NCBI GenBank assembly: GCA_040905475.1
Contig: JBBDRM010000071.1
Span: 1 to 35,576, forward strand
Direction: 5' to 3'
DNA: 35,576 bases
DNA from: Actinomycetota bacterium
Lineage (GTDB): Bacteria; Actinomycetota; AC-67
The translations under genes and the position numbers were made by a program. A model generated the notes under the pieces. The model made no database searches and was not told the origin of the DNA. It saw only the letters and a list, made by a program, of their open reading frames with translations. Positions within the stretch are counted from its first letter, which is position 1. Each line of letters starts with the position of its first letter. This document shows, one piece after another, positions 6,902 through 22,539 of the stretch.

Positions 6902-7758
6902 CAGTACTCCGTCCGCAACAGTCCAGTGGGGCGAACGAGCAACACGACCATGATGAGACCGGCGATCGTCAACTCGGTGAGACCGGGGGTGCTGACCGTG
7001 TAGCCGAGGACGCCCTCTGAGACGCCGAGCAGCACGCCGGCGCCGAAGGCGCCGTGTATATTCGTCAGTCCGCCGAGGAGAGCAGCCGCGAGTCCGCGGA
7101 CGAGCAGCGCGGTCATGAAGAACACGTGGAAGACGACGAGCGAGGAGACCAGGATCGCTGAGATCCCGGAGAGGGCCCCGGCGAGCGCCCACGAGGCAAT
7201 CGACACGGCGTTCGTATTGATTCCGATCTGACCCGCCGCGTACGGGTCGATGGCCGTCGCTCGCATCCGGACCCCGAACGACGTGCGGTTGTAGAGCAAG
7301 GTCAGCCCCAGCAAGACGACGATCGCCGTGAGCACGATCAAGAGCTGGGTCGGCTTGATCGTGAGCCCAAGAAGGTGCGGCCCCTCACCGCCGACGATGG
7401 GATCGATGAACCGGGGTTGGACGCCGTAGCGGCGGCTCGCGAAGACGAGCAGCAAGCCGGCGAGCCCGAACGTCGCGACCAGGAGCGTCACCCGCGGCTG
7501 ATCGCGAAGAGGACGAACGACGAGCCACTCGGTCACTGCCCCCAGCCCGACCGACACCGCGACCCCCACGACGAGCGCAAGTGCAAGCGGATGCCCGTTG
7601 TCGAACCACAGCTCTGAGAACACGAACGCGCCGAGCATGCCGATCTCGCCGTGCGCGAAGTTCACCACCCGAGTCGATCGATAGACGACGACCAAGCCGA
7701 CGGCGAAGATCCCGTAGATCATGCCGACGAACGCCCCGTTCAGGATCGCCGTCGACAT
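6901..7758 (-). CDS. livH: Branched-chain amino acid-type ABC transporter permease (LivH family)
   Basis: A 285-residue inner-membrane permease with the LivH hallmarks GMIYGIFAVGLVVVYRSTRV and NFAHGEIGMLGAF near the N-terminus, FGVRMRATAIDPYAAGQIGI in the coupling loop, and ALLGGLTNIHGAFGAGVLLG near the C-terminus. Normal length, about eight hydrophobic segments. ATG at 7756-7758, 8 bases after the stop of the substrate-binding protein gene. Pairs with the downstream LivM to form the channel of importer 1. Confidence 0.94.
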   Translation of the reverse strand: MSTAILNGAFVGMIYGIFAVGLVVVYRSTRVVNFAHGEIGMLGAFVFSELWFDNGHPLALALVVGVAVSVGLGAVTEWLVVRPLRDQPRVTLLVATFGLAGLLLVFASRRYGVQPRFIDPIVGGEGPHLLGLTIKPTQLLIVLTAIVVLLGLTLLYNRTSFGVRMRATAIDPYAAGQIGINTNAVSIASWALAGALSGISAILVSSLVVFHVFFMTALLVRGLAAALLGGLTNIHGAFGAGVLLGVSEGVLGYTVSTPGLTELTIAGLIMVVLLVRPTGLLRTEY

Positions 7759-7766
7759 CGCGGCTC

Positions 7767-9143
7767 CTAGAACTGCTCGGCCGGCGGGCCGAGGCTCTGC
7801 CAGGTCCAGTCCGAAGTCCGGCAGCAGATCACCGGGAACACGGCGTTCGTTCCGTAGTTACGGCCGGGCGCCCAGGTGAGCGTCGGGAAGGCACCGGTCG
7901 CGAAGTTCTTGGTGGACTCGATCCCTTTGATCATCGTCCCTCTCGTCGGATGGGCGCCGGCGGCGAGGAGGACGCGTTCGAGGACGAGACCGTTCGCGTA
8001 GAAGAGGAATCGCTCCGCCGGCAGCGGACCGCCCTTGCCGTACTGCTCCGCCTTGGCGTTGAAGGCAGCGAACGACGGTGTGTCGACGGCAGCGTACGGC
8101 CGTACCCAGTACGCGCCGGCGGCCAAGTCGCGCGCGACGCTGGAGACGATGTCGAGGGTCAGGCCGTACATCGACGCCCACTGCGGCTCGAAGTTGATCG
8201 CTTGCGCGTCTCGCAGGATCCCGACCGCTTCGAGGATCGCCGACAGGGCGACGACCTTCACCTGAGCATTCTTCAGGCGGAGTAGCTGCGGGGTGAACGA
8301 CTGGGCGTTCGGTTCGGCGCTCTCCACCACGCAACAGTTCATCCCGTCGGCTTTCGCGCGAGCGATGAAGGCCTTCGCGGCTTCCTCGAGCGCGGCGGTG
8401 TCGTGGATGTAGAGGACGCCCATCTTCTCGCCGCCGTCGCCCTGTTTACGGATCAGACTGGGCAGCGACGTCGCTCCTTGATCCCAGCTCGTCGCGCTTT
8501 CATACGAGTTGCGCCAGCCGCCACTGATCGCCCGCAGTCCGCCCGAATACACGGTCGGGAATCCGGCCTTGTCGAGGCAGTCGATCGACGTGTAGTAGGT
8601 GCTGCCCGAGCTGATCGCCAAGAAAGACCCGTTCGATTGCACGGTTTTACACGCCGCGATCCCGCCCTCCGGGCTGTTCTCATTCGAAACCTTCTTCACG
8701 ATCACCTTGCGGCCGTGGATGCCTCCACGCTGGTTGACGTCTTCGACCCACGTCTCCATCCCGCGATAGGCGACGTTGGTCGGCGGGCCGTACACGCCGC
8801 TGAACGAGCCGATGATGCTGACCGTGATCGTCGTCGCGGTTACGCCGACGCTGGAGTTGCTCCCGGTACCACCTCCGCCGCCGATCCCTTGGTCGCCGCC
8901 TCCGCTCGTGCCGCCGGTGCCGCCCGTTCCGCCCGGCCCTTGCGTCCCGCCCGCGATGAGGCTTCCTGGTGTCGGTGTCCCGCCGGTCGGCCCGCCGGGG
9001 ATCCCGGTGCCCGGCCCAAGGTTGTTCCCTCCCTGTTGAGCGCTCAGCGTGAAACCGTTCCTCGGCGTCTCCACCGCGCAGCCGGTGACGACGGCCAGGG
9101 AAACGACGAGCGCGAAGGTCAACCTCTTCCGCGCCACGCCCAT
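7767..9143 (-). CDS. Substrate-binding lipoprotein of importer 1 (periplasmic-binding type I fold)
   Basis: 458 residues. The N-terminus MGVARKRLTFALVVSLAVV followed by TGC is a lipoprotein signal peptide with lipobox VTGC, so the mature protein is anchored through Cys. Next comes an unusual linker of about 60 residues made almost only of Gly, Thr, Pro and Ser, presumably a flexible tether. The ligand-binding domain starts near TATTITVSIIGSFSGVYGPP and has the Leu/Ile/Val-BP-type block WVEDVNQRGGIHGRKV. Several Cys residues (AACKTV, IDCLDK, MNCC, VICC) may form disulphides outside the membrane. ATG at 9141-9143 overlaps the upstream TGA by one base (TGATG). It should deliver the ligand to the LivH/LivM pair downstream. 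Ligand unknown. Confidence 0.92.
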   Translation of the reverse strand: MGVARKRLTFALVVSLAVVTGCAVETPRNGFTLSAQQGGNNLGPGTGIPGGPTGGTPTPGSLIAGGTQGPGGTGGTGGTSGGGDQGIGGGGGTGSNSSVGVTATTITVSIIGSFSGVYGPPTNVAYRGMETWVEDVNQRGGIHGRKVIVKKVSNENSPEGGIAACKTVQSNGSFLAISSGSTYYTSIDCLDKAGFPTVYSGGLRAISGGWRNSYESATSWDQGATSLPSLIRKQGDGGEKMGVLYIHDTAALEEAAKAFIARAKADGMNCCVVESAEPNAQSFTPQLLRLKNAQVKVVALSAILEAVGILRDAQAINFEPQWASMYGLTLDIVSSVARDLAAGAYWVRPYAAVDTPSFAAFNAKAEQYGKGGPLPAERFLFYANGLVLERVLLAAGAHPTRGTMIKGIESTKNFATGAFPTLTWAPGRNYGTNAVFPVICCRTSDWTWQSLGPPAEQF

Positions 9144-10540
9144 CAGCTCACCGCTCCGAGGCGCGACATCGCGCGATTCCATCGGATCCAGCCGATGAGC
9201 CAGGCGACGAGCAGCGCAACGGGGATCAGCGGAGCCCACAGACGGGGCGACAGACCACCGATCGGAGAAGTGATGGTGGTGATCCCGGATGGCGCGGCGA
9301 TGGCGCCGGGCGGGACCGGCACCGGGCCGGACGTCGGCCCGACGAAAGAGGGGATCTCTGGAGAGAACGGTGCTCCGGGCACGAACGGCGTCCCGGGGAC
9401 CGTTGTGGCGGGTGGGCCGGCGCTCGGGGTGCTTGGTCCGTCGCCGACCGGGAGCTCGGCCGCCGCACACAGGAGAACGCCGGTCGCCTCGAGGAACACT
9501 GTCGGCTCGACGGGGACCGGGAAGGGCAGGAGCGGGCCGAGCTGCCCGGCCGCAGGCAGCGTGTCACACGCGCCGACGACCGCGGGGTCGAGGAGCGGTC
9601 GGAACGGCTCGACCGCGGGGACGAGGACCGAGACCGAGCCGGCCGCGTCCTCGATCAGCGGCACGAATGGTTGAGCGGCCACGGTTACGAAAACCAACGC
9701 GGGGCTTACCGGGCTCGAACCCCCCCCGAGGCCGCACGCGGCCGAGAGCGCGGGCTCGACGAACGGGCTCGTCGCGATCGGCAGCGTGACGAACACGCTC
9801 GCCGTCTGGACGAACACGAAGACGGTGCACGCCGGCTCGAAGGCAGGCTGCAGCACGCCGGCCAACGGCTCAAGAGCGAAGCCCGTTCCTGCCATGACAT
9901 CCGCGTACTGGGTGAGCAACGGGGCAAGCTGATCCGTCGGCGGCGCGGGCGGGGGCGGCACGCCGGCGCATGCCGAGTCGAGTGGAGCGAATACGCCGCC
10001 GAATGCGTACCCGTACGGGAGCAGCCCGATGAGCAGCGGCGCCTGCGCGTTGGCTTCGCACATCACCGACAAGGTGGGGCCGAACGAGGAGTAGAGCTGC
10101 TCGAGCGAGTCGGCTCGTTCCCTGATCGCGGCGTCGAGCGTGTTAGTGACTACCGCGATCTCGCCGGCAACCGTGTCGCCGCCCGTCGCCAGGAGATCCA
10201 ATCCCGGCCCTGCGGCTGCGATCGCCGACCCGGCCGAAACGCGGAACGTCGCGAGGGCCTCCGCCGCTTGGGCGATCACCGGGGCCAGACTCTCCGACTG
10301 CGATCCGGCCGTAAGCACGGCCTGCACGAGCGCGTCGTTGAGCGTCGCGATCGCCTCGCCAACCTGCGCGGCGGCGGGTGCGAGCGGCTGCAAGGCGCCG
10401 TGGATCTGCTCGAACAGCACGCCCGCGGGCCCCGACGGTGGTTCCTCGGCGAGCGCGTCGACCGGTGCGAGCGCGATAAGGGCGAGGAGAACGAGGAGGG
10501 CGACACTCGCCCTCGCGCGGGGACCGCGAGCGTCCCTCAG
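9143..10540 (-). CDS. Secreted, C-terminally membrane-anchored protein with Pro/Cys-containing degenerate repeats
   Basis: No recognised family. No ATG, GTG or TTG gives a complete protein: the first (GTG at 10420) falls after a good signal peptide. Reading from a CTG at 10538-10540, which overlaps the TGA of the dehydrogenase gene as CTGA, gives 465 residues beginning with an Arg-rich segment, a hydrophobic core ASVALLVLLALIALAPV and an Ala-x-Ala site before EEPPSG. The body has degenerate repeats in which a PLxxPA-like segment precedes Cys (FAPLDSAC, LQPAFEPAC, FVEPALSAAC, FRPLLDPAVVGAC). A Pro-rich stalk precedes the C-terminal TM segment APLIPVALLVAWLIGWI and a short basic tail. Expected topology: extracytoplasmic, tethered next to the substrate-binding protein. 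The architecture resembles the protein at 29984-31246, but sequence homology is not obvious. Confidence 0.72.
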   Translation of the reverse strand: MRDARGPRARASVALLVLLALIALAPVDALAEEPPSGPAGVLFEQIHGALQPLAPAAAQVGEAIATLNDALVQAVLTAGSQSESLAPVIAQAAEALATFRVSAGSAIAAAGPGLDLLATGGDTVAGEIAVVTNTLDAAIRERADSLEQLYSSFGPTLSVMCEANAQAPLLIGLLPYGYAFGGVFAPLDSACAGVPPPPAPPTDQLAPLLTQYADVMAGTGFALEPLAGVLQPAFEPACTVFVFVQTASVFVTLPIATSPFVEPALSAACGLGGGSSPVSPALVFVTVAAQPFVPLIEDAAGSVSVLVPAVEPFRPLLDPAVVGACDTLPAAGQLGPLLPFPVPVEPTVFLEATGVLLCAAAELPVGDGPSTPSAGPPATTVPGTPFVPGAPFSPEIPSFVGPTSGPVPVPPGAIAAPSGITTITSPIGGLSPRLWAPLIPVALLVAWLIGWIRWNRAMSRLGAVS

Positions 10541-11577
10541 GGCTTGAGCACCACCTTCGTTGCCTCCTTGGCGTCGAACATCTCGTATGCCTTCGCGGCG
10601 TCCTCCAACGGCATCGTGTGCGACACCAGCCGCCCAGGCGTGAGGCGACCCGCCTCGATTAGTCGCATCAGCTCCGGCCGGTACGCGAACGGGTTCCCGA
10701 TCACGGCCGAGATCGACAGGCCGCGCAAGAACGTCTCGCCGGCGCTCACGGGAAACTCCTCGTCCACCAGCACGCCGAGAAGGACGATCCGTCCCCCGAC
10801 GCGAGGCAGCGCGAACGCGGTCTGCAGCGACGGCTCCGAACCGACCGCCTCGATCACGAGATCCGCACCTTGGTTGTTCGTCGAGTCGAACACCGCGTCG
10901 AGGGGATCGCCCTCACGCACGTCGATTGGGATCGCGCCGAGCTCGGCGGCTTGCTTCAGCCTCTCCTCGACGAGATCGATCGCGAACACCTTCGCCGCCC
11001 CGAGCAGCGGCGCGCAGGCGATCGCGAGCTGACCGAGCGGCCCGGCACCCACGACGGCCACCGACTCACCCGGCCGCAGCGCCCCAGCCTTCAACCCGCT
11101 GTAGGCCGTGGAGAGGATGTCGCTCACGAAGAGCACGTCCTCGTCGCTGAGTCCATCGGGGATCGGCGCGAGCGTCATCTCGGCCATCGGGACGCGCACG
11201 TACTCGGCCTGCCCGCCGGGAAGATCGCCGGCCATCGGGCCCATCCCGAACATCATGAATGCCGGACATCCGCGGTGGTTCCCGCTCAAGCAAGACGCGC
11301 ACCGCCCGCACGCCGTGTACATCGCGGCGACACACCGAGCGCCGACCTCGATCTCGCGCACCGCATCGCCAACGTCCTCGACGACGCCGACGAACTCGTG
11401 ACCCACGATCATCCCCGGCTCCGCTCCCGGCGCCTTGTCGTGGTAGATGTGGAGGTCGGTCCCACAGATCGCCGACGTCGTGACGCGCAGGATCGCGTCG
11501 GTCGGCTCCTCGATCGTTGGTTTCGGGGCGTCGTCGACCCGGAAGTCTCTCTCGCCGATGAAGTGAACCGCGCGCAT
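10537..11577 (-). CDS. Zinc-dependent medium-chain alcohol dehydrogenase
   Basis: 346 residues, normal length for the MDR family. Catalytic zinc ligands are C38 (SAICGTD), H60 and E61 (GHEFVG). The structural zinc cluster is C90, C93, C96 and C104 (CGRCASCLSGNHRGC). The Rossmann motif VGAGPLGQLA and an Asp after the second strand (FAIDLVEE) suggest NAD preference. In context it could oxidise the primary allylic alcohol produced by a LIS/LDI isomerase, the role played by geraniol dehydrogenase GeoA in monoterpene-degrading Castellaniella; that assignment is inference. ATG at 11575-11577 with a GAGGG-type ribosome site upstream. The 3' end overlaps the secreted-protein gene by 4 bases. Confidence 0.92.
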   Translation of the reverse strand: MRAVHFIGERDFRVDDAPKPTIEEPTDAILRVTTSAICGTDLHIYHDKAPGAEPGMIVGHEFVGVVEDVGDAVREIEVGARCVAAMYTACGRCASCLSGNHRGCPAFMMFGMGPMAGDLPGGQAEYVRVPMAEMTLAPIPDGLSDEDVLFVSDILSTAYSGLKAGALRPGESVAVVGAGPLGQLAIACAPLLGAAKVFAIDLVEERLKQAAELGAIPIDVREGDPLDAVFDSTNNQGADLVIEAVGSEPSLQTAFALPRVGGRIVLLGVLVDEEFPVSAGETFLRGLSISAVIGNPFAYRPELMRLIEAGRLTPGRLVSHTMPLEDAAKAYEMFDAKEATKVVLKP

Positions 11578-11600
11578 CGCTGATTACCCTCCTCGCTTGT

Positions 11601-12020
11601 CTAGACGTTGATCAGATCCTGCCGTCCGTCGTTCGCAAGGATCTTCTCGTAGCGCGCCCGAAGCGGTTTCGCGAGCGGCATGAGCTTCAGCATCTTCGGG
11701 ACCGAGCCCTTGACCCGAACCTTCCCGCGGGCCATCGCCGCGGTCATGTTGAGCTTGCCGAGCCAGAACCTGTGTCCGTCATCGGCGGACATCTTCAGCT
11801 CCATGTTGGGCTTGAAGTCGGCGGGGAGCTGCGCGGCACCGAGGAAGAGGCCACCCTCGTCGAACACGACGCCGATCGTCGAGTCCGGATCGGTGTATTC
11901 GATCCGGACGATCAGGCCCGACCCCTTGGTCTTCTCGGCCAGTTCCGGATCCTCCATCGCAACCTTGAAGATCTGCGCAAGGTACTTGTAGACCTCTTGC
12001 TCGTTCTTGAAGAGCGCCAT
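11601..12020 (-). CDS. SCP2-like sterol/lipid carrier domain protein
   Basis: 139 residues consisting of a single SCP2-type fold. Visible features are the charged N-terminal helix, strands IVRIEYTDPDSTIGVVFD, and the typical C-terminal block in which a small-residue stretch (MTAAMARGKVRVKGSVPKML) follows the WLGKLN segment. SCP2 domains bind hydrophobic ligands such as sterols, fatty acyl-CoA or isoprenoids in a tunnel. No signal peptide, so it is cytosolic. It lies between the LIS/LDI gene and the alcohol dehydrogenase, with gaps of 33 and 23 bases, consistent with ferrying a water-insoluble intermediate between membrane and enzyme. Confidence 0.82.
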   Translation of the reverse strand: MALFKNEQEVYKYLAQIFKVAMEDPELAEKTKGSGLIVRIEYTDPDSTIGVVFDEGGLFLGAAQLPADFKPNMELKMSADDGHRFWLGKLNMTAAMARGKVRVKGSVPKMLKLMPLAKPLRARYEKILANDGRQDLINV

Positions 12021-12053: not shown

Positions 12054-13979
12054 TCAGTTCATCGGGGTGAGCCGGACCTCCTTCCGACCATCGAGGTCGA
12101 TCCGGATCGCGGCGCGCCCTTCCGCGTCGGCCGTCACACGATCCTCGACGCCGCCCACAACCGCGTAGGTTTTGGAGGGAGCGAGCCGCTCGAACAGCAG
12201 CGGCTGCCGGCCCGCGCCGTCGCCCGGCCGCAGCACCAAATCGATCGACGAACCGTCGGTGACGGCCATGGCTACGAGCACCTGCGGGTAGGGAGCGTCC
12301 GCTAGCACCGGCCCCCGTGCGATGACTTCGGGGGTGCCGTAGTTGATGAGGTCGTGCCACGCCCGGCGCCCGCCGAAGCGGCCCGGCGAGAGCATCACGT
12401 TGGCCGCGTTCGAGCCGGGATAGCGAAGCGCTCCACCCTCGACCGACGCGGCCGGCCCTTGCACGTCGAGCGACCGCTGCAGCCCGTCGGCCATCTCGTC
12501 GTCGCCCATCTCGCGGGCGGCGGCGATCCCGAACGCGTAGACCAGATATCCGATCGAGGGCTTGTAGTTCCCGACGTCGAGCCGGTCGGCAGGGCTTAGG
12601 AACTTCATAACCGCCAGACCGTCGCGATCCAGGGTGAAGGCGTTGTCGCGCGCCAGGACCCAGTTCCGCACCGCGATGTCGTTGACCAGCGGGCTCAGCC
12701 AGAACGTGAACCCGGCGATGTTCGTCGTCGAGTTCGTGATCCCCGGCACCGTGATACCGATCCGAGACGAACGCGTGGACAAGGGCCGGCCGTCGACTGT
12801 GGAGAACTCGACGCGCGCGGCGTGGTCGAACGCGTCCCGCACATCTTCGGCGTACCCAGTCCCGTGGAGCCGGTCGTGAGCGATGAGGCCGCCCATCGCG
12901 ATCATGTTGCACAGCGGGTACACCCAGTTGGGCTCGCATGGGAACATGCAGTACGTCGACTGCGAGAAGTTGTGGTGCACGGCCTTCGCCACCGCGGGAT
13001 GGTCGTACGCGAAGGTCTTCTTGTCGTTCCACCGGAAGGGAAGGCAGGCGGCCTGATCGTATCGGTGGTCACCGTTGGTCGTCTCGTACGCGGCGATCTG
13101 CAAGCCGTAATAACCCGAAAGCATGATGTTGTCGCGCGCCATCGGGTCGACGTCGGTGGAGAAGTTCCCCCACAGGTTCTCCCACTTCCAGTACTGCCAG
13201 ACCCTGCGATCGCTCATCTTCTCGATCAGACGGCGCTGCGCTTCTGCCACGTAGCCGGTGAAGGCGGGAGTCCGGGTGTACTGGCCGAGGGCGAGGCCCC
13301 AGCCGCCGTAGTTCAGCTGATAGCGAACCGCGGCCTCGCGGAACTGGTCCACCCACTCGAAACCGTCGAACCGATCGACCGGCTGGAGCGCCAGGTTCAA
13401 CAGATAGCGGTGGTGAGCCAGATCGACCTCCGAATGTTCCAGGATCTCCCGCGACGTCGGCCCGGTCGGCGGCCGGTACTCGATCGTCGCGAGTTTGGTG
13501 TTGAGCACGTCGGCGCGCCGTTGGGAGCGACGGAACGAGGCACGCTGGGTGACGAAGCTCAGAAGGATCACGGCACCGAGACCGGCCGGAAGACCGATGT
13601 CGACGCCCGTCCAGACGGTGCTCGGCGTGCGGATCGCAGCGAGGACGGCTGCCGCCCACCAGACGAGGAACGGGGCGAACATCATGCCGATGATGAACCA
13701 CGCGACGAACGCCACGATGAACACCACAAAGGCAACGGCGAAGAACGTCGGGTCAGACGAGTACAGGAACCCCCCGCCCGGGAAGAGCAGGCCGTGCGCC
13801 AGCGCATGCAGCCGGGGCGACTCGGTCGCGAGGAGGAGCGCGATCGCAGTGATCATCGGGACGCCGAAGATGACGAACGTCCGGCGCGCGAGCCTGGCGG
13901 TGACGGGCCCCATCGGTCGGGCGCGGGGCGGGAGAGCGAGCGTCCGCGGTCGTTCCGTGGCAACGGCAGTGGTTCCCAT
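12054..13979 (-). CDS. Membrane-anchored linalool isomerase / linalool dehydratase-isomerase family protein 1
   Basis: 641 residues. Residues 34-145 contain about four hydrophobic segments. Residues ~190-560 match the linalool dehydratase-isomerase (LDI) alpha/alpha-barrel: VRYQLNYGGWGLALG, DPMARDNIMLSGYYGLQIA, and CEPNWVYPLC followed by HDRLHGTGY. The pair C348/C357 corresponds to the LDI active-site cysteines (171 and 180, from memory); the LDI active-site His in the NIM-x-x-G-H block is Tyr290 here. Length and N-terminal membrane anchor resemble linalool isomerase of Thauera linaloolentis (about 640 residues, from memory). A further ~80-residue beta-rich C-terminus ends RIDLDGRKEVRLTPMN. 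The ATG at 13977-13979 is preceded by AAAGGGGG at good spacing; upstream in-frame ATGs would place coding sequence over the operator. First gene of the 14-kb operon. Likely isomerises or (de)hydrates an isoprenoid alcohol; substrate unproven. Confidence 0.85.
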   Translation of the reverse strand: MGTTAVATERPRTLALPPRARPMGPVTARLARRTFVIFGVPMITAIALLLATESPRLHALAHGLLFPGGGFLYSSDPTFFAVAFVVFIVAFVAWFIIGMMFAPFLVWWAAAVLAAIRTPSTVWTGVDIGLPAGLGAVILLSFVTQRASFRRSQRRADVLNTKLATIEYRPPTGPTSREILEHSEVDLAHHRYLLNLALQPVDRFDGFEWVDQFREAAVRYQLNYGGWGLALGQYTRTPAFTGYVAEAQRRLIEKMSDRRVWQYWKWENLWGNFSTDVDPMARDNIMLSGYYGLQIAAYETTNGDHRYDQAACLPFRWNDKKTFAYDHPAVAKAVHHNFSQSTYCMFPCEPNWVYPLCNMIAMGGLIAHDRLHGTGYAEDVRDAFDHAARVEFSTVDGRPLSTRSSRIGITVPGITNSTTNIAGFTFWLSPLVNDIAVRNWVLARDNAFTLDRDGLAVMKFLSPADRLDVGNYKPSIGYLVYAFGIAAAREMGDDEMADGLQRSLDVQGPAASVEGGALRYPGSNAANVMLSPGRFGGRRAWHDLINYGTPEVIARGPVLADAPYPQVLVAMAVTDGSSIDLVLRPGDGAGRQPLLFERLAPSKTYAVVGGVEDRVTADAEGRAAIRIDLDGRKEVRLTPMN

Positions 13980-14023
13980 AGCCCGCCCCCTTTGGGTCGC
14001 ATGAACCGATATCCCGGCCCGCG

Positions 14024-14048
14024 ACATGTTACAAATCTTGATACATGT
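14024..14048. promoter_or_regulatory. Putative TetR operator (25-bp imperfect palindrome)
   Basis: Left arm ACATGTTACAA (14024-14034), 3-bp centre, right arm TTGATACATGT (14038-14048). Nine of eleven arm positions are complementary. It lies between the divergent LIS/LDI-1 and TetR genes, overlaps the -35 box of the TetR promoter and sits just downstream of the -10 box of the operon promoter, so one bound repressor could silence both directions. The arms and position are visible; binding by the adjacent TetR is inferred. Confidence 0.65.
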
Positions 14049-14066
14049 ACTAGATTGAGTTAAAAT
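14038..14066 (+). promoter_or_regulatory. Sigma70-type promoter for the TetR gene
   Basis: TTGATA at 14038-14043, 17-bp spacer, TAAAAT at 14061-14066. Transcription would begin near 14073, about 60 bases before the GTG start of the regulator. The -35 box lies inside the right arm of the palindrome, suggesting autorepression. Confidence 0.6.
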
Positions 14067-14091
14067 AGGCACCGGATAGGGCGAAAGTCAA
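14062..14091 (-). promoter_or_regulatory. Putative promoter of the 14-kb LIS/LDI-transport operon
   Basis: On the minus strand, TTGACT at 14091-14086, an 18-bp spacer and TATTTT at 14067-14062. The -10 box shares the same AT-rich segment as the divergent TetR promoter. The palindrome at 14024-14048 begins about 13 bases downstream, a typical repressor position. Confidence 0.55.
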
Positions 14092-14134
14092 GAGCGGGGC
14101 ATGATGTGCCAAACCGACGAGAGGGAGCGCACGG

Positions 14135-14839
14135 GTGAAGAGCGAGCACCGGCACGCGGCGAGGCTGGCTGCGGAGAATAGAAAGACCCCGTGGGACGGC
14201 CGCGCCCCGGCCGACGACGACATCGCACGCGACCGGCTCCTCGATGCGGCCGCCTCTTGCTTCGAGCGGTTCGGCGTGCTGAAGACCACGGTGGACGACG
14301 TGGCGACCACTGCCCACGTATCACGAACGACGGTTTACCGGTACTTCCGCGGCGGGCGCGACGAGCTGATACTCGGCGTCTTCATGCGAGAGGTGCAAGA
14401 GCTGTCCGGGGAGATCGCCGCAGCGATGCGCGAGGAGTCCACGTTCCCGGAGGCCGTAATCTCATCGATCGTCTTCGCGGTACGGTCCGTGCGCGATGGG
14501 ATCCATCTCAGGTTCCTCTTCTCGCCCGAAACTGTCGGGGAGACGGCGAATATCGTCATGACCTCGCCCGCGTTCTACGCCCTGACATCGGAGACGTTGC
14601 GGCCGTTCTTCGAGGATGGCCAGCACCGGGGTGAGATCCGGACCGATCTCAAACTAGAGGACACGAGCGAGTGGCTCGTGCGCATAACGCTCTCGCTGAT
14701 GACCGTGAACGCGCCCGTCGAACGCGACGACGATCAACTCCGTGCATTCCTGCGTGAGTTCCTCGTACCGATGTTTCGCTCCGAACCTTCCGTCATCACG
14801 CTCGACGGTCCCGACGCTCAGTTCGCCTCACGCGGCTGA
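14135..14839 (+). CDS. TetR-family transcriptional regulator
   Basis: 234 residues. The N-terminal helix-turn-helix domain spans roughly residues 30-75 (DRLLDAAASCFERFGVLKTT, then VSRTTVYRYFRG, the TetR recognition helix). The C-terminal ligand domain has no recognisable subfamily. About 28 polar residues precede the HTH. Start is GTG at 14135-14137 with GAGGGAG at 14121-14127; nearby upstream ATGs are out of frame. It is transcribed divergently from the LIS/LDI operon with a shared regulatory region, so it most likely represses that operon and itself, with the imported substrate or a CoA derivative as inducer (inference). Confidence 0.9.
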   Translation: MKSEHRHAARLAAENRKTPWDGRAPADDDIARDRLLDAAASCFERFGVLKTTVDDVATTAHVSRTTVYRYFRGGRDELILGVFMREVQELSGEIAAAMREESTFPEAVISSIVFAVRSVRDGIHLRFLFSPETVGETANIVMTSPAFYALTSETLRPFFEDGQHRGEIRTDLKLEDTSEWLVRITLSLMTVNAPVERDDDQLRAFLREFLVPMFRSEPSVITLDGPDAQFASRG

Positions 14840-14847
14840 GTCGGCTC

Positions 14848-15334
14848 ATGCAAGTTGGTCTCGTTAGGCGGACGCGCTGGGAGACGGCCGCGCGACTTGG
14901 GAACGACGCCGGTCTCATCGCGTGCGCCGCGATCTTCGGGTTGGGGTTGGGTGGCCTGCTTCACCGTGTGCTGATCGCTGCGTTCGAACGATGGGGGCGC
15001 CTCTCCGTGATCCCAAACGCGCCGCGCGCGTCGCTCCGCGAAGACATGTTGACGGTCGGCCCGTGGGCGGCGATCGCTCTGAGCGTGTCCGTCTACGCGT
15101 TGATGGGCCGATGGCGAACCCGGGCGTGGAGCTGGCGGCGCGCGGCCGGTGCGTCGATCGCGGTCGCCGGCGCAGTGGTCCTCATTAGTCGGCGAGCTCG
15201 AGGTTCATGTGTTCCGGACGCTCGCGCAGGAGTGGCGTCCGCACGATCTCTGGGATGTGATCTTCCATGTGCTCGGCGAGGCGATCGCACTCATGGGATG
15301 GCTGCTACTTCCGCGCGGCGAGCCGCGCGGCTGA
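14848..15334 (+). pseudogene. DUF2243-like membrane protein with an apparent frameshift
   Basis: The first frame, from ATG 14848, encodes three hydrophobic segments typical of DUF2243 (FGLGLGGLLHRVLIAAF, then VGPWAAIALSVSVYALMGRW, then GASIAVAGAVVLI). Near 15183-15190 the good protein sequence jumps to the next frame, continuing as VGELEVHVFRTLAQEWRPHD and WDVIFHVLGEAIALMGWLLL up to the TGA at 15332-15334. In the original frame the sequence becomes Arg/Ala-rich shadow. The span is 487 bases, one more than a multiple of three, consistent with a single-base indel in a gene of about 161 codons. It starts 9 bases after the TetR stop and probably shares its transcript. Either a recent pseudogene or an assembly error. 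Confidence 0.55.
15311..15330. terminator. GC-rich hairpin between convergent genes
   Basis: Perfect inverted repeat with 9-base arms, CCGCGCGGC and GCCGCGCGG, separated by GA. It lies over the last codons of the DUF2243-like gene, 11 bases before the end of the convergent small membrane-protein gene. There is no T-run, so a classical intrinsic terminator is doubtful, but the position fits a bidirectional transcription stop. Confidence 0.4.
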
Positions 15335-15340
15335 TTCGGG

Positions 15341-15634
15341 TCAGACGGGCTCGCGTACCCGCCGATCGACCATCGCCTCGTCGAAAGAGCTCCTGAGGTA
15401 ATCGGGGAGCTCATAAACCGGAGTGGGCACCGCAGGAGCGATGTCGGCGGACGGCTTGCCGCCGAACAATGCTTTCACGGACCGCCCGGTCCATCGGGCC
15501 GCACGAAACACTATTCCAAGGAGGAACGCGCCGATCAGACAGCAGACCATCAACGCAAGATAAGCACGGAGTGATCGCCCCCGTCCAGGACCAAGATTGA
15601 CGCCGCAGGTCCGGGTCTCGTACGAGCAGTGCAT
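15341..15634 (-). CDS. Small hypothetical single-TM protein
   Basis: 97 residues with one clear hydrophobic segment, AYLALMVCCLIGAFLLGIVF, followed by a basic stretch and a soluble C-terminus containing PVYELPDYLRSSFDEAMVDR. No family was recognised. It lies 82 bases downstream of the galactokinase-like gene on the same strand and may be the last gene of that operon. ATG at 15632-15634; a shorter start cannot be excluded. The amino-acid composition is protein-like, not shadow-like. The 3' end converges on the DUF2243-like gene. Confidence 0.5.
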   Translation of the reverse strand: MHCSYETRTCGVNLGPGRGRSLRAYLALMVCCLIGAFLLGIVFRAARWTGRSVKALFGGKPSADIAPAVPTPVYELPDYLRSSFDEAMVDRRVREPV

Positions 15635-15716
15635 TCGAGCTCACGGCGATCCCTTACTACGCGTGGGCCAACCGCGATCCTGCACCGATGACGGTCGGGA
15701 TCCGCCGCGATCCAGG

Positions 15717-16766
15717 CTAGAGAGCAACCTCGCCCGCTCCGTCGACTGCGACGACCGGCCTCGCGCGAACGCCGGGTGCCCGCTCCTCGACCTGCCGTGC
15801 GAAGTCGGCCTCGGACCCCGCGCGGACCAGCGCCAGGACGAAGCCGGCAAATCCTGCGCCGACGAGACGGGCGCCGAGACAATCCGTCTGGTTGCGTGCC
15901 GCCTCGACGGTCCTATCGAGCCGCGGCGAGGAGACCTCGAAATCGTCGCGGAGCGAACGGTGCGTAGCGTTGATCAAGTCCCCCATCGCCTCGACGTCGC
16001 CGCGCGTGATCGCGTCGAGGAACAACCGGACGCGATCGTTCTCGGTCCTGAGGTGCCGCAGCCGGCGTTCCCCGCGATCTGTGGTATCACGTCCGGCGAT
16101 CGCGTCTTCCGCCTCGATGCGTCGAGCGGCGTACCGCCCGTCTTCGAGCCGACGTCGCGTGTCTGTGTCTACGACCACGAACCCGACGGGCGGGAGCGGC
16201 AGCGTCTGCCAGGTCATCGCCGCACAGTCGATCGCGAGTGCGTGTCCCTGTCGGCCGTGCAGCACGGCGACCTGATCCATGATCCCACACGGCACGCCGA
16301 CCGCGAGGTGCTCGGCACGCTGGAGCACCTCGGCGGCCGGAGCGACGCCGTTGAGCAAAGCCAGCGCCAGAACGGCCTCGAGCGCGGCGGACGACGACAG
16401 CCCGGAACCGGCGGGGATCGACGACCAGATCGCCCCGCGGAAGCCACGCACGCGCAGACCGGCTTCCCGGAGCGCCTCGACGACGCCCGCGACGTACCGG
16501 CCCCACCCTACGGCTGCGTCGCCGGGATGCTCGAGTGAGATCCGAACCTCGCCGGGTTGATCGAGGGAAGAGACGATCACCTCGTCTTCCAGCGGGACGG
16601 CGACGAGCACGGACTCGAGATCGCACGCGAACGGAATCACGGTCCCGCCCGTGTAGTCGACGTGCTCGCCGATCAGGTTGACGCGGCCGGGCGCACGCCA
16701 GATATGGAGCCCGGGCTCATCCGGACCTACCCCAAGGCGCTCGAAGAGCGCTTCAGGAGCGCGGAG
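15717..16766 (-). CDS. Galactokinase-like GHMP kinase, start codon not identifiable
   Basis: About 350 residues with all GalK hallmarks: APGRVNLIGEHVDYTGG (sugar-binding motif), SIPAGSGLSSSAALEA (ATP-binding motif 2), GVPCGIMDQ (catalytic Asp), and GARLVGAGFAG (motif 3, with Val instead of the usual Thr). It would phosphorylate galactose or a related hydroxyl compound. The reading frame continues upstream into the LIS/LDI-2 gene with no ATG, GTG or TTG before the GEH motif, so the 5' boundary given is approximate. The frame is +1 relative to LIS/LDI-2 and joins it exactly at its TCC-TGA end. Explanations: a rare start codon, a +1 frameshift fusion, or an indel. A galactokinase after a terpene-type enzyme is unexpected; a non-sugar alcohol substrate is possible but unsupported. 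Confidence 0.8.
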   Translation of the reverse strand, partial: LRAPEALFERLGVGPDEPGLHIWRAPGRVNLIGEHVDYTGGTVIPFACDLESVLVAVPLEDEVIVSSLDQPGEVRISLEHPGDAAVGWGRYVAGVVEALREAGLRVRGFRGAIWSSIPAGSGLSSSAALEAVLALALLNGVAPAAEVLQRAEHLAVGVPCGIMDQVAVLHGRQGHALAIDCAAMTWQTLPLPPVGFVVVDTDTRRRLEDGRYAARRIEAEDAIAGRDTTDRGERRLRHLRTENDRVRLFLDAITRGDVEAMGDLINATHRSLRDDFEVSSPRLDRTVEAARNQTDCLGARLVGAGFAGFVLALVRAGSEADFARQVEERAPGVRARPVVAVDGAGEVAL

Positions 16767-18684
16767 CGATGCGTACCTCGGTGCGCCCGGCCAGATCGAC
16801 CTCGAGAACCGCCTTGCCGTCGCCGTCCGCGACGACCTCGGATGGGAGCGCCCCACGTACCGCGTACGAACGGCCGGGATCCAGCCGGCCGATGCCCAGC
16901 CGCTTCCGGCCGCCACCGTTGCCGGGGTAAAGGATCGCGTCGAGGGCAACGCCGTCCGTGACGGCCCTCGCAACAAGGACGTCCGGATACCCGGCGTCGG
17001 CGAGGACGGGCCCTTCACGCCACGCGGCCGGCAACCCGCGCGAGATCATGTCGCGGAAGCCTCCTTCGCGGCCGAATCGCCCGAGGAGCGCCATCCCGTT
17101 CGCGATGAGCGAGCCGCCCGCGTAGCGGCGCACGCCGTCGCGGGTCTCCGGCGCGAACTTCACCTCCATTGCGTCTTTCAACGCCGCGAAGGTCTCCTCA
17201 TCGCCCATCTCGCGGGCGGCGGCCGAGACGATCGCGTGCGGGGCAACGTCGGAACGGCGGTAGCTTCCGACATCGATCTTGTCCCAGCCACGGAGCTCGA
17301 GACGAACTCGCCCGTCCGGACCGTTCATCACGAGCTCCCTGCGGACCAGCGCCCAGGTTCGCTGAGCGACGTCGGGGAGGCTCGCCGCCAGGAACAGCGC
17401 GGTCCCCGCGTCGGCCATCGTGGAGGTGAGGGATGGGATGGTCACACCGAGGCGGCTCGACCGGATCGCCGTCACGCGCCCATCAGGCGTTAGGAACTCG
17501 ACGTCCGCGGCGTGGCGATAACCGTCGATCGCCTGGACCGCGTGGTCGGTGCCGTGCAGGCGGTCGTGGACCAGCAGCGTGTTGATCCCGAACGCGTTGC
17601 ATCCGGTGTAGATCCAGTTCGGCTCACACGGGAACATCCCGAACGGCGAGCTTCGGAAGTTCTCCGAAACGGCGCCGCTGATCGAATGGTGGTCGTACGC
17701 GAACGTGCGGCGGTCGTCCCACCGGAACCGCACCGACCCGGCGACGTCGTACGCGTCGTCTCCGGTGTTCGACTCGTACAAGCCGATCATCAACCCGAGG
17801 TAGCCGGACAGCATGATGTTGTCCTTCGGGATGGGGTTGGGATCGAGGTCGAGATTGCCCCACATGTTCTCGAGTCGCCAATACTTCCAGACTCGGCGGT
17901 CCTGCATCTTGGCGATCAGACGTCGGTTCGCCTCCGAAAGGTAACCGTGGAACGCAGGGGTGCGCGTGTACTGCGCGAGTGCGAGCGCGTACTGTGCGAA
18001 GTTGATCTGGTAGCGCACGGCCGCCGTCTGGAACTGATCGATGAACGTGAAGCCGTCGAACCGATCGACCGGCTGCAGCGCGAGATCGAGCAAGTACCGT
18101 TGCGCTGCGAGGTCCTCTTCTGAGAGCTCCGACCCAAGCGGCGGCGTCGCCCCCGAGGCTTCGGGGATCGGCTCAAGCGTGACGAGGTAGCGATTGCGTT
18201 CGATCCGCCGCTGACTCGCCGCGCGGAACGCCGCCTGCTGCCCTATGAACCCGAGAAGCAACGTGCCGGCTACGAGCGCCGGGACGCCGAGCTCGGCCCA
18301 GGTCCAGGTCCCAGCGTCCGTCCGCATGGTCGCGAGCGCTGCCGCACCGAGCCACACCAGCGGCGGGGCCAGGATGTTTCCGGTCCCGAACCACGCCACG
18401 AGCGATACGACGAAGACGACGATCGTCAGAAAGACGAAGAGCGGATCGGCGGTGTAGAGGAAGCCGCCGCCCGGCATGACGAAGCCGAGACCGAACGCTT
18501 TCCATCGCGCCGCCGCGTCGAGGACCACAGGAAGCATGCCCAGAGTCGCCACGACCAGGTAAACGGTGAGGGTTCTTCGAAGGCGTGCGGCCGTAACCGG
18601 ACCATGGGGCTTGGAGCGCTCGGGGATCAGGAAGCTCTGAGCGGCATCGGAGGCCGCCGCCGGCATCGCCTCTCGAATGGCCAT
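16753..18684 (-). CDS. Membrane-anchored linalool isomerase / linalool dehydratase-isomerase family protein 2
   Basis: 643 residues, a full-length paralogue of the protein encoded at 12054-13979. It has the same N-terminal layout with hydrophobic segments at about residues 38-55, 82-100, 104-120 and 134-150. It shares LALQPVDRFDGF, RTPAFHGYLSEA, KDNIMLSGYLGL, CEPNWIYTGC (C353/C362, matching the LDI active-site cysteines) and HDRLHGTDH. As in paralogue 1, Tyr (295) replaces the LDI active-site His. It also keeps the extra C-terminal beta-rich segment ending DLAGRTEVRIAPRS. ATG at 18682-18684 with AAGGGGG upstream. It lies in an operon with an acyl-CoA ligase, thiolase-like protein and enoyl-CoA hydratase, linking the family to CoA-thioester catabolism. 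Substrate unproven. Confidence 0.85.
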   Translation of the reverse strand: MAIREAMPAAASDAAQSFLIPERSKPHGPVTAARLRRTLTVYLVVATLGMLPVVLDAAARWKAFGLGFVMPGGGFLYTADPLFVFLTIVVFVVSLVAWFGTGNILAPPLVWLGAAALATMRTDAGTWTWAELGVPALVAGTLLLGFIGQQAAFRAASQRRIERNRYLVTLEPIPEASGATPPLGSELSEEDLAAQRYLLDLALQPVDRFDGFTFIDQFQTAAVRYQINFAQYALALAQYTRTPAFHGYLSEANRRLIAKMQDRRVWKYWRLENMWGNLDLDPNPIPKDNIMLSGYLGLMIGLYESNTGDDAYDVAGSVRFRWDDRRTFAYDHHSISGAVSENFRSSPFGMFPCEPNWIYTGCNAFGINTLLVHDRLHGTDHAVQAIDGYRHAADVEFLTPDGRVTAIRSSRLGVTIPSLTSTMADAGTALFLAASLPDVAQRTWALVRRELVMNGPDGRVRLELRGWDKIDVGSYRRSDVAPHAIVSAAAREMGDEETFAALKDAMEVKFAPETRDGVRRYAGGSLIANGMALLGRFGREGGFRDMISRGLPAAWREGPVLADAGYPDVLVARAVTDGVALDAILYPGNGGGRKRLGIGRLDPGRSYAVRGALPSEVVADGDGKAVLEVDLAGRTEVRIAPRS

Positions 18685-18747: not shown

Positions 18748-19512
18748 TCATCGCCCCGTCCAAACCGGCGCCCGCTTCTCGGCGAACGCGGCGATGCCCT
18801 CCCAGACGTCCTGCGTCGCGGTGACCTCAGCCGCCCGCTCGAAGTTGCGCTTCCACGCTTCCTCTTCGGTCATCTCAAGCGACTCGATCATGAGTCGCTT
18901 CGACACCCGAACGGCCACAGGGGCGTTCTCGCAGATCCGCTCCGCGAGCGCGATCGCTTCGTCCAGCACCCGATCCGCCGGCACGACCCGGTTCACGAGC
19001 CCGAGCGCGAGCGCCCGCTGCGCGTCCACCGGGTCCGCGGTCATCGCGAACTCGAGCGCGATCGCGAGCGGGATCCGCTTGCCGAGCCGGATCAGGCCGC
19101 CGGCTGCGGCCATGAGGCCGCGCTTCACCTCGGGGATGCCGAACGTCGCGTGCTCGGCGGCGACGGCGAGATCGCAGGACAGCACGATCTCGAACCCGCC
19201 GGCGAGCGCCGGGCCGTTGACCGCGGCGATCAACGGCTTCGGGAAGAAGCGCTGCCCGATCCCCGCGAAGCCGCCCGGAGCTCCGATGATCCGCTCCGCG
19301 TCGGTTGCGATCGCCTTGAGGTCGACGCCGGCGCAGAAGGCCTTATCTCCGGCTCCCGTGATCACAACGGCCCAGACGGCGTCGTCGGCCTCGAGCTCGT
19401 CGAAGATCGCCGACAGCGCCCACGCCGTATCGCCGTCGATCGCGTTCCGCGCCTCGGGACGATCGAGCGTGACGATCTCGATGCGACCCCGACGTTCCCT
19501 GCGAACGGTCAT
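18748..19512 (-). CDS. Enoyl-CoA hydratase/isomerase (crotonase family)
   Basis: 254 residues, normal length. The oxyanion-hole regions are seen in AFCAGVDLKAIA and the NGPALAGGFE segment. Both hydratase glutamates appear present, in GGFEIVL and FGIPEVKRGL, so hydratase activity on a 2-enoyl-CoA is plausible. ATG at 19510-19512. It lies between the thiolase-like gene (31-base gap) and LIS/LDI-2 (63-base gap), in one minus-strand operon. Likely a beta-oxidation-type step; the chain type cannot be read from the sequence. Confidence 0.92.
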   Translation of the reverse strand: MTVRRERRGRIEIVTLDRPEARNAIDGDTAWALSAIFDELEADDAVWAVVITGAGDKAFCAGVDLKAIATDAERIIGAPGGFAGIGQRFFPKPLIAAVNGPALAGGFEIVLSCDLAVAAEHATFGIPEVKRGLMAAAGGLIRLGKRIPLAIALEFAMTADPVDAQRALALGLVNRVVPADRVLDEAIALAERICENAPVAVRVSKRLMIESLEMTEEEAWKRNFERAAEVTATQDVWEGIAAFAEKRAPVWTGR

Positions 19513-19543: not shown

Positions 19544-21061
19544 TCAGACGATGTCGAAGGTCGTCTGTCCCTCGGTGTTCGTCTCCACTTTGCCCTCGAT
19601 CCCGATCGGTTCGACGTCCGGCCGGATGAGAACCTCGAGCGCCGCGCGATCGCCCGGCGGCGTGTTCGCGACGAAGCGCTCGCCGCCGCGCAAACGCCCG
19701 ACGACGATCCCGCTGGCCGGTTCCCCCGACCGGCCGTACACGACCGTGTACGTCTCGAGCGAGCCGGGCCCGTTCGGCTCGGGCGCGAGCGACGGAGCCG
19801 GAAGCGCGTCGATCGCGCGTTGTCGCGCTTCGTCGTCGCCGACCGCATAACCCTCAGCCGGCGGCTCGTTCCCCATCAGCAGCGCGTGATGTTTCGTCAC
19901 CAGGCCTCCCTGGCCGTAGAGGAGCGCCGAGGAACCCTCCCCGCGCCGCATCGCGCGCGTCATCGCGGCCATCGCATGCAGCATGTAGGCGTTCCCCGCG
20001 CCGCCGAAGAACGTCAGGCCTCCGGTGACGCTCATCGGCCGCGCGCGATCCAGGCCCATATGCGTCGACGCCATCTTCGGAACGCACGGGAAGCAGCTGT
20101 AGAGCTCGAGCAGGTCGATGTCCATGATGCCGCCCTCGGTCAGGGAGAGCGCATCGTCGAGCGTCGCTTCCATCGCCGGCGCGCGGTCGTACGAGACTCG
20201 TCGGAGGACGTCCATCGGGTCGTCTGCCCCGGCGCCGCCCCACGGGTAAACCCAACGCTTCTCGGGCACCCCGAGCCGCCGCGCGGTTCCGGTGTCGGTG
20301 ACGACGACGGCCGCGGCCTGGTTCACGAGCAGGTAGGCATTCATCAGCTTGGTGTAGGGATGGGCGATCATCCGGTTGTCCGGCGCCGGCGTCGCGATCT
20401 GATCAGGCTCGCGGGGCGTGGGATGCCACGCGGCGGGGTTGCTCGCGGCGATCTTCGACATGTCGGACCACATCTGCGCGGACCAGCGCTGGCTCTCGTC
20501 GAAGCTCATCCCTTGCGCGGCGCGGAACGCGTTCTCGTAGAGCGGATAGATCTGCGTCGGCCATTGAAGGCCGTGGCGGAAGGCGACCGGCGGTATGACG
20601 TCCTGGGCCTGGACCGGCTGGTCCTCGGGCGGCGTCCAGGGCAGCGCCACGCCCGTGCGCATCGAACGCTCGACCGAGCGGAACACGTCGCCGGCGCAGA
20701 CCAGCGCGACGGTGCTCTCGCCGGCGGCGATGCGGGCGGCGGCCAGGTCGACGAGCTTCGTCGGCCAGTTCCCGCCCCAGTCGGTGTGCACCCGGTGGGC
20801 CGGGCGGGCCCCGAGCCGCTCGGCGAGCAGCGCCGGCAGATCCCGGTACACCCACGCCGCGACGTTGACGATGAGCAGCGTGTCGGTCTCATCGAGCAGC
20901 GCGCGCGCCGGCCCGGCGTCGTCGGCCGCGAGCCGAGCCGCCTCCTCGAGAAGCGTCAGCGGTTCCTTGGCGTTCGCGAGGTCGTCGTCGGCGATGCGGT
21001 CGGCGAGGTCTCCGACCCCGACGATGACGGGGACGGCCTCGCGATGCCGCCGGACGCCCAC
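19544..21061 (-). CDS. Thiolase-like protein (acetyl-CoA acetyltransferase family, SCP-x/lipid-transfer type)
   Basis: 505 residues. Motifs VIVGVGDLADR at the N-terminus, LLELYSCFPCVPKMA (region around the family's conserved Cys) and TGGLTFFGGAGNAYMLHAMA identify the divergent thiolase-like group common in actinobacterial sterol and fatty-acid clusters. A C-terminal extension of about 80 residues (from TYTVVYGRSGEP) resembles the small OB-like domain attached to such thiolases. Activity may be thiolytic or retro-aldol-like; it cannot be decided here. Start taken as GTG at 21059-21061; a CTG at 21071-21073 that overlaps the upstream TGA as CTGA would add four residues. Confidence 0.85.
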   Translation of the reverse strand: MGVRRHREAVPVIVGVGDLADRIADDDLANAKEPLTLLEEAARLAADDAGPARALLDETDTLLIVNVAAWVYRDLPALLAERLGARPAHRVHTDWGGNWPTKLVDLAAARIAAGESTVALVCAGDVFRSVERSMRTGVALPWTPPEDQPVQAQDVIPPVAFRHGLQWPTQIYPLYENAFRAAQGMSFDESQRWSAQMWSDMSKIAASNPAAWHPTPREPDQIATPAPDNRMIAHPYTKLMNAYLLVNQAAAVVVTDTGTARRLGVPEKRWVYPWGGAGADDPMDVLRRVSYDRAPAMEATLDDALSLTEGGIMDIDLLELYSCFPCVPKMASTHMGLDRARPMSVTGGLTFFGGAGNAYMLHAMAAMTRAMRRGEGSSALLYGQGGLVTKHHALLMGNEPPAEGYAVGDDEARQRAIDALPAPSLAPEPNGPGSLETYTVVYGRSGEPASGIVVGRLRGGERFVANTPPGDRAALEVLIRPDVEPIGIEGKVETNTEGQTTFDIV

Positions 21062-21069
21062 GCCGGCGC

Positions 21070-22539
21070 TCAGTCGCCCTTCGGGCGTTCGTCGATGATG
21101 CGGCGAGCCTTGAACTCGCGAGTGGGGTCGTAGATCTCCGAGAGGTCGTCGAGGATCTCGACCTTCGGACGCATCTCGACGGCCATCAGCAGCCGCTTCC
21201 GGAGCTCCTCGAGGTCCGACGACTCCCATGAGGTGCGGTCGACGCTCGGCTCTAGTCCCAGGCGCAGCCGCACGACTTCTTGCGAGTACGGGTCCGAAAG
21301 GTCTTCCAGGGTGACGATCATCTGATACTCGACGACGCCCGGCGAGTTCATGACGACATCGTGAACAAGCTGAGGATTGACGAGCGTTCCCTTGATCTTG
21401 AGCAGCTCCGACGTTCGTGAGATGTGCGCGCTGCCGCTCGAAACGAGCAGCGATCCGCCGCCGCGCCCGCACCGCTCGCAGCGCTCGAACGTGATCGCGG
21501 AGATATCCCCGAGCAGATACCGCAACAATGGCATCCCACGCCGGTTCAGATGCGTCAGCGCGACGAGTCCGGGCTGACCGTCGGGTACTCGTGCGTGCGT
21601 GTCCGGGTCGAGGATCTCGAGGAACACCTGGTCCGGCGCGGCCGGATGCAACGGGCCCCCTTCGTAGCACGGACCCCACGGGAGCCCTCCCTCGGTGAAG
21701 CCGTACGTGCCGGTGATGAACACGTTGTTGGCGCCGCAGCGCGCGAGGTTGGCGTGCATGTGGTCGCGCATCCCTTTGGTCAGCACCTCGCCGCTCGCGA
21801 TCACGATCTCGAGCGACGACAGGTCGCGGCCGTTCCGGGCGGCATCGGCGAACATCCGGCGAAGGAAGCTGCCGATCCCGGCGAGGATCTCGGGACTCCG
21901 CGATTCGATCATGCCGACGAGGGCGGTGGTGGAGCGCTGGACCGGGAACTCGTCGTGCGGGATCCCCGTGAACCCGTGCAGGAAGGCGATCCCGGCCGCG
22001 TTCGCGATCATGTTCCCGAAACCGGCGACGTGCGGAAGGGGGCTCAGCGGGAAACCGGTGAGGAAGAGGTCGCCGGGGATGTAGTAGCTGAGCTTCGCGT
22101 TCCGGATGCCCGCCTGCAGGATCCCGAAGTAGTCGTGGGTCGTGTACTCGTACGGGGTCGGCCAGCCCATCGTCGTGCCCGTCGTGTAGACGGTCGTGTA
22201 GGTGAGGTCGTAGAGGGTTCCTTGCGGGAACTTCATGCGGAACGATTGCGGGTTCCCCATGAGGTCCTTCTTCGTGGTCACGGGGAGATGGACGAGGTCG
22301 TCGACCGTCTTGATGCCGGCAGCGTCGATCGACTCTCGCTCGAAGAGCTCGCGGTAGAACGGGCTCGCTTCGGCGAGCCAGCCCACCTGACGGCGAAGCA
22401 GCTCGTCCTGGCGATCGCGCAGGCGGTCGTCGGGCCAGAAGGTGGGGTCCTCGGCGTCCGCCTTGTACGAGGGGATCGCGTCGATGAACTCCCGCACCGA
22501 CTCGGGCGTAGGGTCGATGAACGGTCGTTTCTGCGCCAT
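21070..22539 (-). CDS. AMP-forming acyl/aryl-CoA ligase (PaaK-like)
   Basis: 489 residues. Adenylate-forming motifs visible are YTTGTTMGWPTPYE (P-loop-like), YGFTEGG (A5-like motif), and a C-terminal segment with KIKGTLVNPQLVHD, typical of phenylacetate-CoA ligase relatives. It contains a CERCGRGG motif, a possible metal site as in some PaaK relatives. Expected reaction: carboxylic acid plus CoA plus ATP to acyl-CoA, AMP and PPi. First gene of the minus-strand operon; ATG at 22537-22539. It would activate the acid for the following thiolase, hydratase and LIS/LDI-2 proteins. The acid is unknown. Confidence 0.9.
   Translation of the reverse strand: MAQKRPFIDPTPESVREFIDAIPSYKADAEDPTFWPDDRLRDRQDELLRRQVGWLAEASPFYRELFERESIDAAGIKTVDDLVHLPVTTKKDLMGNPQSFRMKFPQGTLYDLTYTTVYTTGTTMGWPTPYEYTTHDYFGILQAGIRNAKLSYYIPGDLFLTGFPLSPLPHVAGFGNMIANAAGIAFLHGFTGIPHDEFPVQRSTTALVGMIESRSPEILAGIGSFLRRMFADAARNGRDLSSLEIVIASGEVLTKGMRDHMHANLARCGANNVFITGTYGFTEGGLPWGPCYEGGPLHPAAPDQVFLEILDPDTHARVPDGQPGLVALTHLNRRGMPLLRYLLGDISAITFERCERCGRGGGSLLVSSGSAHISRTSELLKIKGTLVNPQLVHDVVMNSPGVVEYQMIVTLEDLSDPYSQEVVRLRLGLEPSVDRTSWESSDLEELRKRLLMAVEMRPKVEILDDLSEIYDPTREFKARRIIDERPKGD

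Follow-up and report, generated by a model that had tools for sequence, protein, structure and literature searches.

The 35,576-nucleotide contig JBBDRM010000071.1 (hereafter the window) of an Actinomycetota bacterium (GTDB lineage AC-67, assembly GCA_040905475.1) carries two genes, A and B, whose products add two new members to the known LDI family, within its LIS-type branch. Gene A (12054..13979, minus strand) encodes a protein of 641 amino acids (aa) with Cys348/Cys357, Tyr290 and Asn195, while gene B (16753..18684, minus strand) encodes 643 aa of the same three-part architecture with Cys353/Cys362, Tyr295 and Asp200. Both proteins matched the Pfam profile Ldi (PF18566, curated cut-off of 26.1 bits), A with 284.7 bits (E = 1.5e-84) and B with 317.9 bits (E = 1.2e-94), and at these expected values the matches are not due to chance. 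In addition, both matched the LDI crystal sequences in phmmer. The LDI reference sequence was identical to PDB 5HLR chain A over 371/371 residues, and LDI numbering follows it throughout. The start of A was taken as the ATG at 13979; an alternative listed GTG at 14072 would give 672 aa and cross a 25-bp dyad located upstream. Overall, coordinates, lengths and Pfam matches agreed with the original prediction of two full-length LIS/LDI homologues with these open reading frames (ORFs) and residues. Its count of two paralogues holds for the pair itself but not for the genome, in which a total of four LDI-family genes was found.

In the AlphaFold models of A and B (mean pLDDT of 94), helices at the N-terminus are followed by a barrel and then by a beta segment at the C-terminus. 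Protein A is composed of a membrane domain (residues ~25-165), an LDI-like (alpha/alpha)6 barrel (~177-555) and a C-terminal beta segment (~557-641), the last of which spans residues ~560-643 in the model of B. Kyte-Doolittle hydropathy with 19-residue windows produced, at the threshold used, four N-terminal hydrophobic windows in A, three in B and four in Thauera Lis, and the models of A and B contained the same N-terminal helix set. By hydropathy and AlphaFold, predicted membrane helices precede the LDI-like domain in both proteins. In a structure comparison, the predicted barrels matched the LDI crystal structures with Z of 36-38 and a root-mean-square deviation of 2.3-2.7 Å over ~332 residues; the next-best matches (Z of ~22) were sugar epimerases and glycosidases, which have this barrel too.

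Published Lis of Thauera linaloolentis 47Lol (EC 5.4.4.4) has 644 residues and combines four transmembrane helices with a domain in the cytosol (PMC4791888), and its gene lies downstream of atuCFE (PMC4847356). A LIS-type gene that directly follows genes for a 545-aa carboxyltransferase, a 705-aa biotin carboxylase and an enoyl-CoA hydratase was taken as lis because the strain's genome, the published atuCFE order and the lengths of AtuC and AtuF match. Its product aligned with B over residues 28-641 and showed 40% identity to B over 633 columns and 35% to A over 632 columns, with 49% (B) and 46% (A) in the C-terminal segment. The likeness comprises full-length homology with N-terminal helices, an LDI-like domain and a C-terminal segment, together with a cysteine pair and an aromatic residue at the position of LDI His128. 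Thus the membrane anchor and beta segment, which had been read as additions, are present in both proteins but are not additions with respect to the family, since Thauera Lis has both. Thauera Lis differs in having Trp instead of the Tyr of A and B at the His128 position, Glu at an acidic position occupied by Asp in B and Asn in A, and a location with atuCFE which A and B do not share. LDI of Castellaniella defragrans 65Phen (LinD; PDB 5HLR, 5I3T, 5G1U) shares the (alpha/alpha)6 barrel, Cys170/Cys179 and the NIM..G motif but is more distant (21-25% identity); its mature form is a periplasmic protein of 371 residues that lacks both the anchor and the C-terminal segment, and its His128 and Cys48-Cys101 disulfide are not kept in A and B.

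The active-site residues of LDI given in the literature are Asp38, Tyr44, His128, Cys170 and Cys179 (PMC12455561). The equivalents of Cys170/Cys179 were identified at 348/357 in A and 353/362 in B, which confirms the prediction that both LDI cysteines are kept, and they were retained in 87/87 homologues and in 27 further ones. The 87 homologues consisted of 80 loci from a genome-contig scan, the window, a second contig of the same genome (C72) and three same-phylum sequences. Cys48-Cys101 is a structural disulfide of LDI (PMC6600392); A and B have Asp at both aligned positions, and their first Cys occurs no earlier than residue 312 in A and 353 in B.

At the position of LDI His128, inside the ungapped NIM..G motif, the alignment placed Tyr290 in A (codon TAT, 13110..13112, minus strand) and Tyr295 in B (codon TAC, 17800..17802, minus strand), and His in neither. 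The replacement of the active-site His by Tyr was therefore correctly read in the original prediction but is not distinctive. In the 87 homologues this column contained Trp in 49, Phe in 20, Tyr in 17, Asn in one and His in none. Because one scan pattern of the two required Tyr or Trp here, sequences with the other pattern, which is blind to this position, were counted separately and gave Phe 19, Trp 12 and Tyr 3. The 27 further homologues were found with the Pfam profile, which fixes no residue, and had Tyr (11), Phe (8) or Trp (8). Over all 114 homologues the position was Trp, Phe or Tyr with a single Asn and never His, showing that an aromatic residue is the family state and that, within this sample, His is confined to LDI. 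As far as the sequences tell, Lis-type proteins ordinarily carry one of several aromatic residues at the LDI-His position, and Tyr is among these and no mark of new chemistry. With no His in 114 homologues and Trp in Thauera Lis, the exchange of His for Tyr was rejected as a special feature. It is accordingly very improbable that A and B are a neofunctionalised pair in which the exchange created a new active site and a reaction unlike that of LDI or LIS; Tyr does occur in A, B and the two other LDI-family genes of the genome, as such a pair would suggest, but aromatic residues are the rule in LIS-type proteins and LDI is the outlier.

The residue that sets A apart lies near the barrel start in the motif [D/E]-x-A-L-Q-P, where B has Asp200, Thauera Lis has Glu and A has Asn195 (codon AAC, 13395..13397, minus strand). 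The acidic column of the 87-sequence alignment contained 79 Asp, 6 Glu, one Asn (A) and one gap (a truncated sequence), and the sequences containing an independent DNIM pattern showed Asp 48, Glu 5, Asn 1 and gap 1. Among the 27 profile-found sequences there were 23 Asp, one Glu and three Ser, the latter (L098, L099 and L100) at a place where their alignment is ambiguous. These three, all from a single actinobacterial family, form a divergent LDI-family clade; their Pfam scores were the highest of any encountered, and their pattern around the acidic residue differs (H[FI]DNLSRQLP). In an alignment-free motif search, A was the only LIS-type sequence without an acid at this point, with six sequences unreadable by the search. 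By this reading of the sequences A lacks the near-invariant acid of LIS-type proteins, and the claim goes no further. No open paper on LDI-family surveys or Asp variants was found in the literature.

For LDI, calculations summarised in PMC6600392 proposed that an aspartic acid protonates myrcene, with no residue number stated there. MAFFT paired LDI Asp38 with Asp200/Asn195, whereas an ungapped reading shifts the pairing by up to two residues and hhalign gave no coverage there. Owing to this uncertainty, conservation is the ground on which a catalytic role of the acid is proposed.

With Asn195 in place of the acid, the activity of A may be altered, weaker or lost. It is a minority view, and rather doubtful, that A is impaired or repurposed for substrate binding, delivery or assembly with B while B is the working enzyme. 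In its favour, A has the sole non-acidic residue among the LIS-type homologues readable at the motif, its branch is longer than that of B (1.16 vs 0.48 changes per column in a quick tree with low resolution around A and B) and its identity is below that of B to each of the five homologues compared. However, A has an intact frame and retains the Cys pair and almost every strongly conserved column, which speaks against gene decay, and it has a TetR gene and a dyad of its own; a one-base assembly or strain difference (GAC to AAC) at the Asn195 codon is also possible. It appears unlikely, although the Asn195 in an otherwise conserved and separately regulated gene adjoining an SCP2-alcohol dehydrogenase pair points that way, that A is a functionally distinct LIS-type protein that either catalyses another step than B does or, without catalytic function, acts as a carrier or partner.

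A and B showed 47% identity to each other. A recent duplication was rejected because B is equally near to a Mycobacterium homologue (49%). No closer orthologues were found in family-, order- and class-level searches, which covered only five genomes. A is probably a diverged paralogue with its own predicted TetR control. The gene of this TetR-family regulator (14135..14839, plus strand) is divergent from A, and the 25-bp dyad ACATGT-N2-CAA-N3-TTG-N2-ACATGT (14024..14048) between the two is a candidate operator. The dyad was present as a single copy in the 4.24-Mb genome at ≤2 mismatches. It was rejected as a shared operator of A and B because no second copy was found in the window, in L005 (a locus on C72) or in the genome.

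Orientation and spacing of the genes, from which operon structure was inferred, supported two separate transcription units for A and B. Gene A heads a minus-strand series that starts with an SCP2 (sterol/lipid carrier) domain protein of 139 aa directly after A (11601..12020) and a Zn-dependent alcohol dehydrogenase of 346 aa (10537..11577). These are followed by a branched-chain-type ATP-binding cassette (ABC) transporter, made up of a Peripla_BP_6 periplasmic-binding-protein ORF of uncertain start (7767..9470) and further transporter genes at 3983..7758, namely permeases (6901-7758, 5453-6901) and ATPases (4693-5460, 3983-4696). The series ends with two DUF7064/DUF7065-like proteins (2940-3986 and, below the cut-off, 341-1327) on either side of a PEP-utilising mobile-domain protein (1324-2946), all on the minus strand. 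The predicted placement of A with transport genes was thus confirmed, with the SCP2 and dehydrogenase genes in addition. B, as had also been predicted, is located with genes for an enoyl-coenzyme A (CoA) hydratase/isomerase upstream of it (18748..19512), a thiolase-like protein (PRK08257-like, TLP1 C-terminal domain; 19544..21061) and an AMP-binding CoA ligase (PaaK/FlxY-like, below curated cut-offs; 21070..22539), all on the minus strand.

A galactokinase/GHMP-kinase-like ORF (15717-17018, minus strand) has a frame that begins within the 3' end of B, and the stretch from the stop of B to the conserved RAPGRVNLIGEH motif of this ORF showed no conventional start codon. On the other side of B, a helix-turn-helix (HTH)-like protein and a short pyruvate phosphate dikinase (PPDK)-like protein were identified at 26033-28542; the two are also found together close to LIS-type genes of Mycobacterium, Nocardioides and sphingomonads. 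The plus-side neighbours of the window (PPDK-like, HTH, GntR and nitronate monooxygenase-like) recurred at the LIS-type genes of Mycobacterium pinniadriaticum (L013) and/or Nocardioides marmoriginsengisoli (L081). The M. pinniadriaticum gene, which shares 49% identity with B, resembles the window in its PPDK-like, HTH and GntR neighbours and differs from it in that no window-type SCP2 or ABC-transporter match was found near it. Over the 80 loci, clusters of genes for aldehyde dehydrogenase, enoyl-CoA hydratase, CoA ligase and thiolase turned up repeatedly, and PPDK-like and GntR genes were also among the recurrent neighbours of LIS-type genes.

The two other LDI-family genes of the genome were both located on C72, the third at L005:7577-9499 and the fourth, a very divergent gene with 24-29% identity to those family members with which it was compared, at L006:4876-6792, both on the minus strand. 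The SCP2 protein of A had its sole other genome copy (85% identical) on C72, ~3 kb from the third LDI-family gene, and an 89% identical copy of the Zn-dependent alcohol dehydrogenase lay beside it. This recurrence of the SCP2-dehydrogenase pair near LDI-family genes suggests a link between them. The pair at L005:2831-4301 is 85-89% identical to window positions 10537-12020, while the LDI-family proteins nearby are only 40% identical. The contig that holds these two LDI-family genes also carries a GH127 beta-L-arabinofuranosidase-like gene (L005:109-1950, minus strand); the barrel fold is common to GH127 enzymes, which also appeared as a weak structural match. In the tree, LIS-type genes from genomes of the same phylum as the window's genome grouped with those of named Actinomycetota, in line with an actinobacterial origin. 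In wider samples, LDI-family genes were found in 6/396 genomes of a phylum sample and in 34/401 of one family in it, and the survey showed LIS-type proteins spread across Actinomycetota, Pseudomonadota and Myxococcota.

Together, gene structure, predicted fold, residues and gene order led us to infer an activity, a substrate, a role for the acid, a mode of regulation and a pathway. A and B are most likely allylic-alcohol isomerases or dehydratases that need no cofactor and belong to a predicted terpenoid-alcohol catabolic island. A helical anchor in the inner membrane would carry the LDI-like (alpha/alpha)6 barrel and the C-terminal beta segment, and at least B would isomerise a hydrophobic allylic alcohol (tertiary/primary, of the linalool/geraniol type) by cofactor-free acid/base chemistry that may or may not include dehydration. 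Catalysis would depend on the conserved, reduced Cys pair and the near-invariant acid (Asp200 in B), and the enzymes encoded by the neighbouring dehydrogenase, CoA-ligase, hydratase and thiolase genes would then oxidise the product and activate it to a CoA ester. Overall, we consider it likely that both are Lis-type proteins with a membrane-anchored LDI-like barrel, of which at least B isomerises a linalool- or geraniol-type alcohol and A is a diverged paralogue.

Several observations weigh against this assignment. The closest characterised relative, Thauera Lis, is only 35-40% identical and the activity of close relatives is itself predicted, and the LIS acid can be aligned with LDI Asp38 only to within one or two residues. 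The window yielded none of the Atu genes that lie with lis in Thauera, and no geranyl-CoA carboxylase genes adjacent to A or B were found in it. For AtuC of Thauera, the genome's best match (37% identity) was closest to propionyl-CoA carboxylases and resembles their beta subunit, and three others were weaker; no geranyl-CoA carboxylase candidate was recognised among these four, of which only the best was followed further. Conversely, the portion of the Thauera locus that was read showed neither SCP2 nor the ABC transporters.

A reading with the same mechanism but different substrates, to which we give somewhat less than an even chance, is that the substrates are not monoterpenols but sesquiterpenols, phytol/isophytol-like alcohols, prenol/2-methyl-3-buten-2-ol or steroid side-chain alcohols. 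An SCP2 lipid-carrier domain adjoins A and is found again near the third LDI-family gene, neighbours resembling those of fatty-acid or steroid catabolism (PRK08257-like thiolase, PPDK-like, GntR) are shared with the Mycobacterium or Nocardioides LIS loci, and the missing geranyl-CoA carboxylase candidate is in line with such substrates. Many of the genera with LIS-type genes are, moreover, known to degrade hydrocarbons or steroids. Against these points, a non-monoterpenol substrate is itself deduced indirectly and the best-studied relative acts on linalool/geraniol (PMC4791888).

As predicted, the family has few characterised members, and only two were found described as such, LDI and Lis (PMC4791888, PMC6013536). 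For the family, the comparison showed that the active-site His of LDI is not a family feature while the conserved acidic residue is. As a natural Asp-to-Asn variant at this residue, A provides a clean test of the catalytic core of the family.

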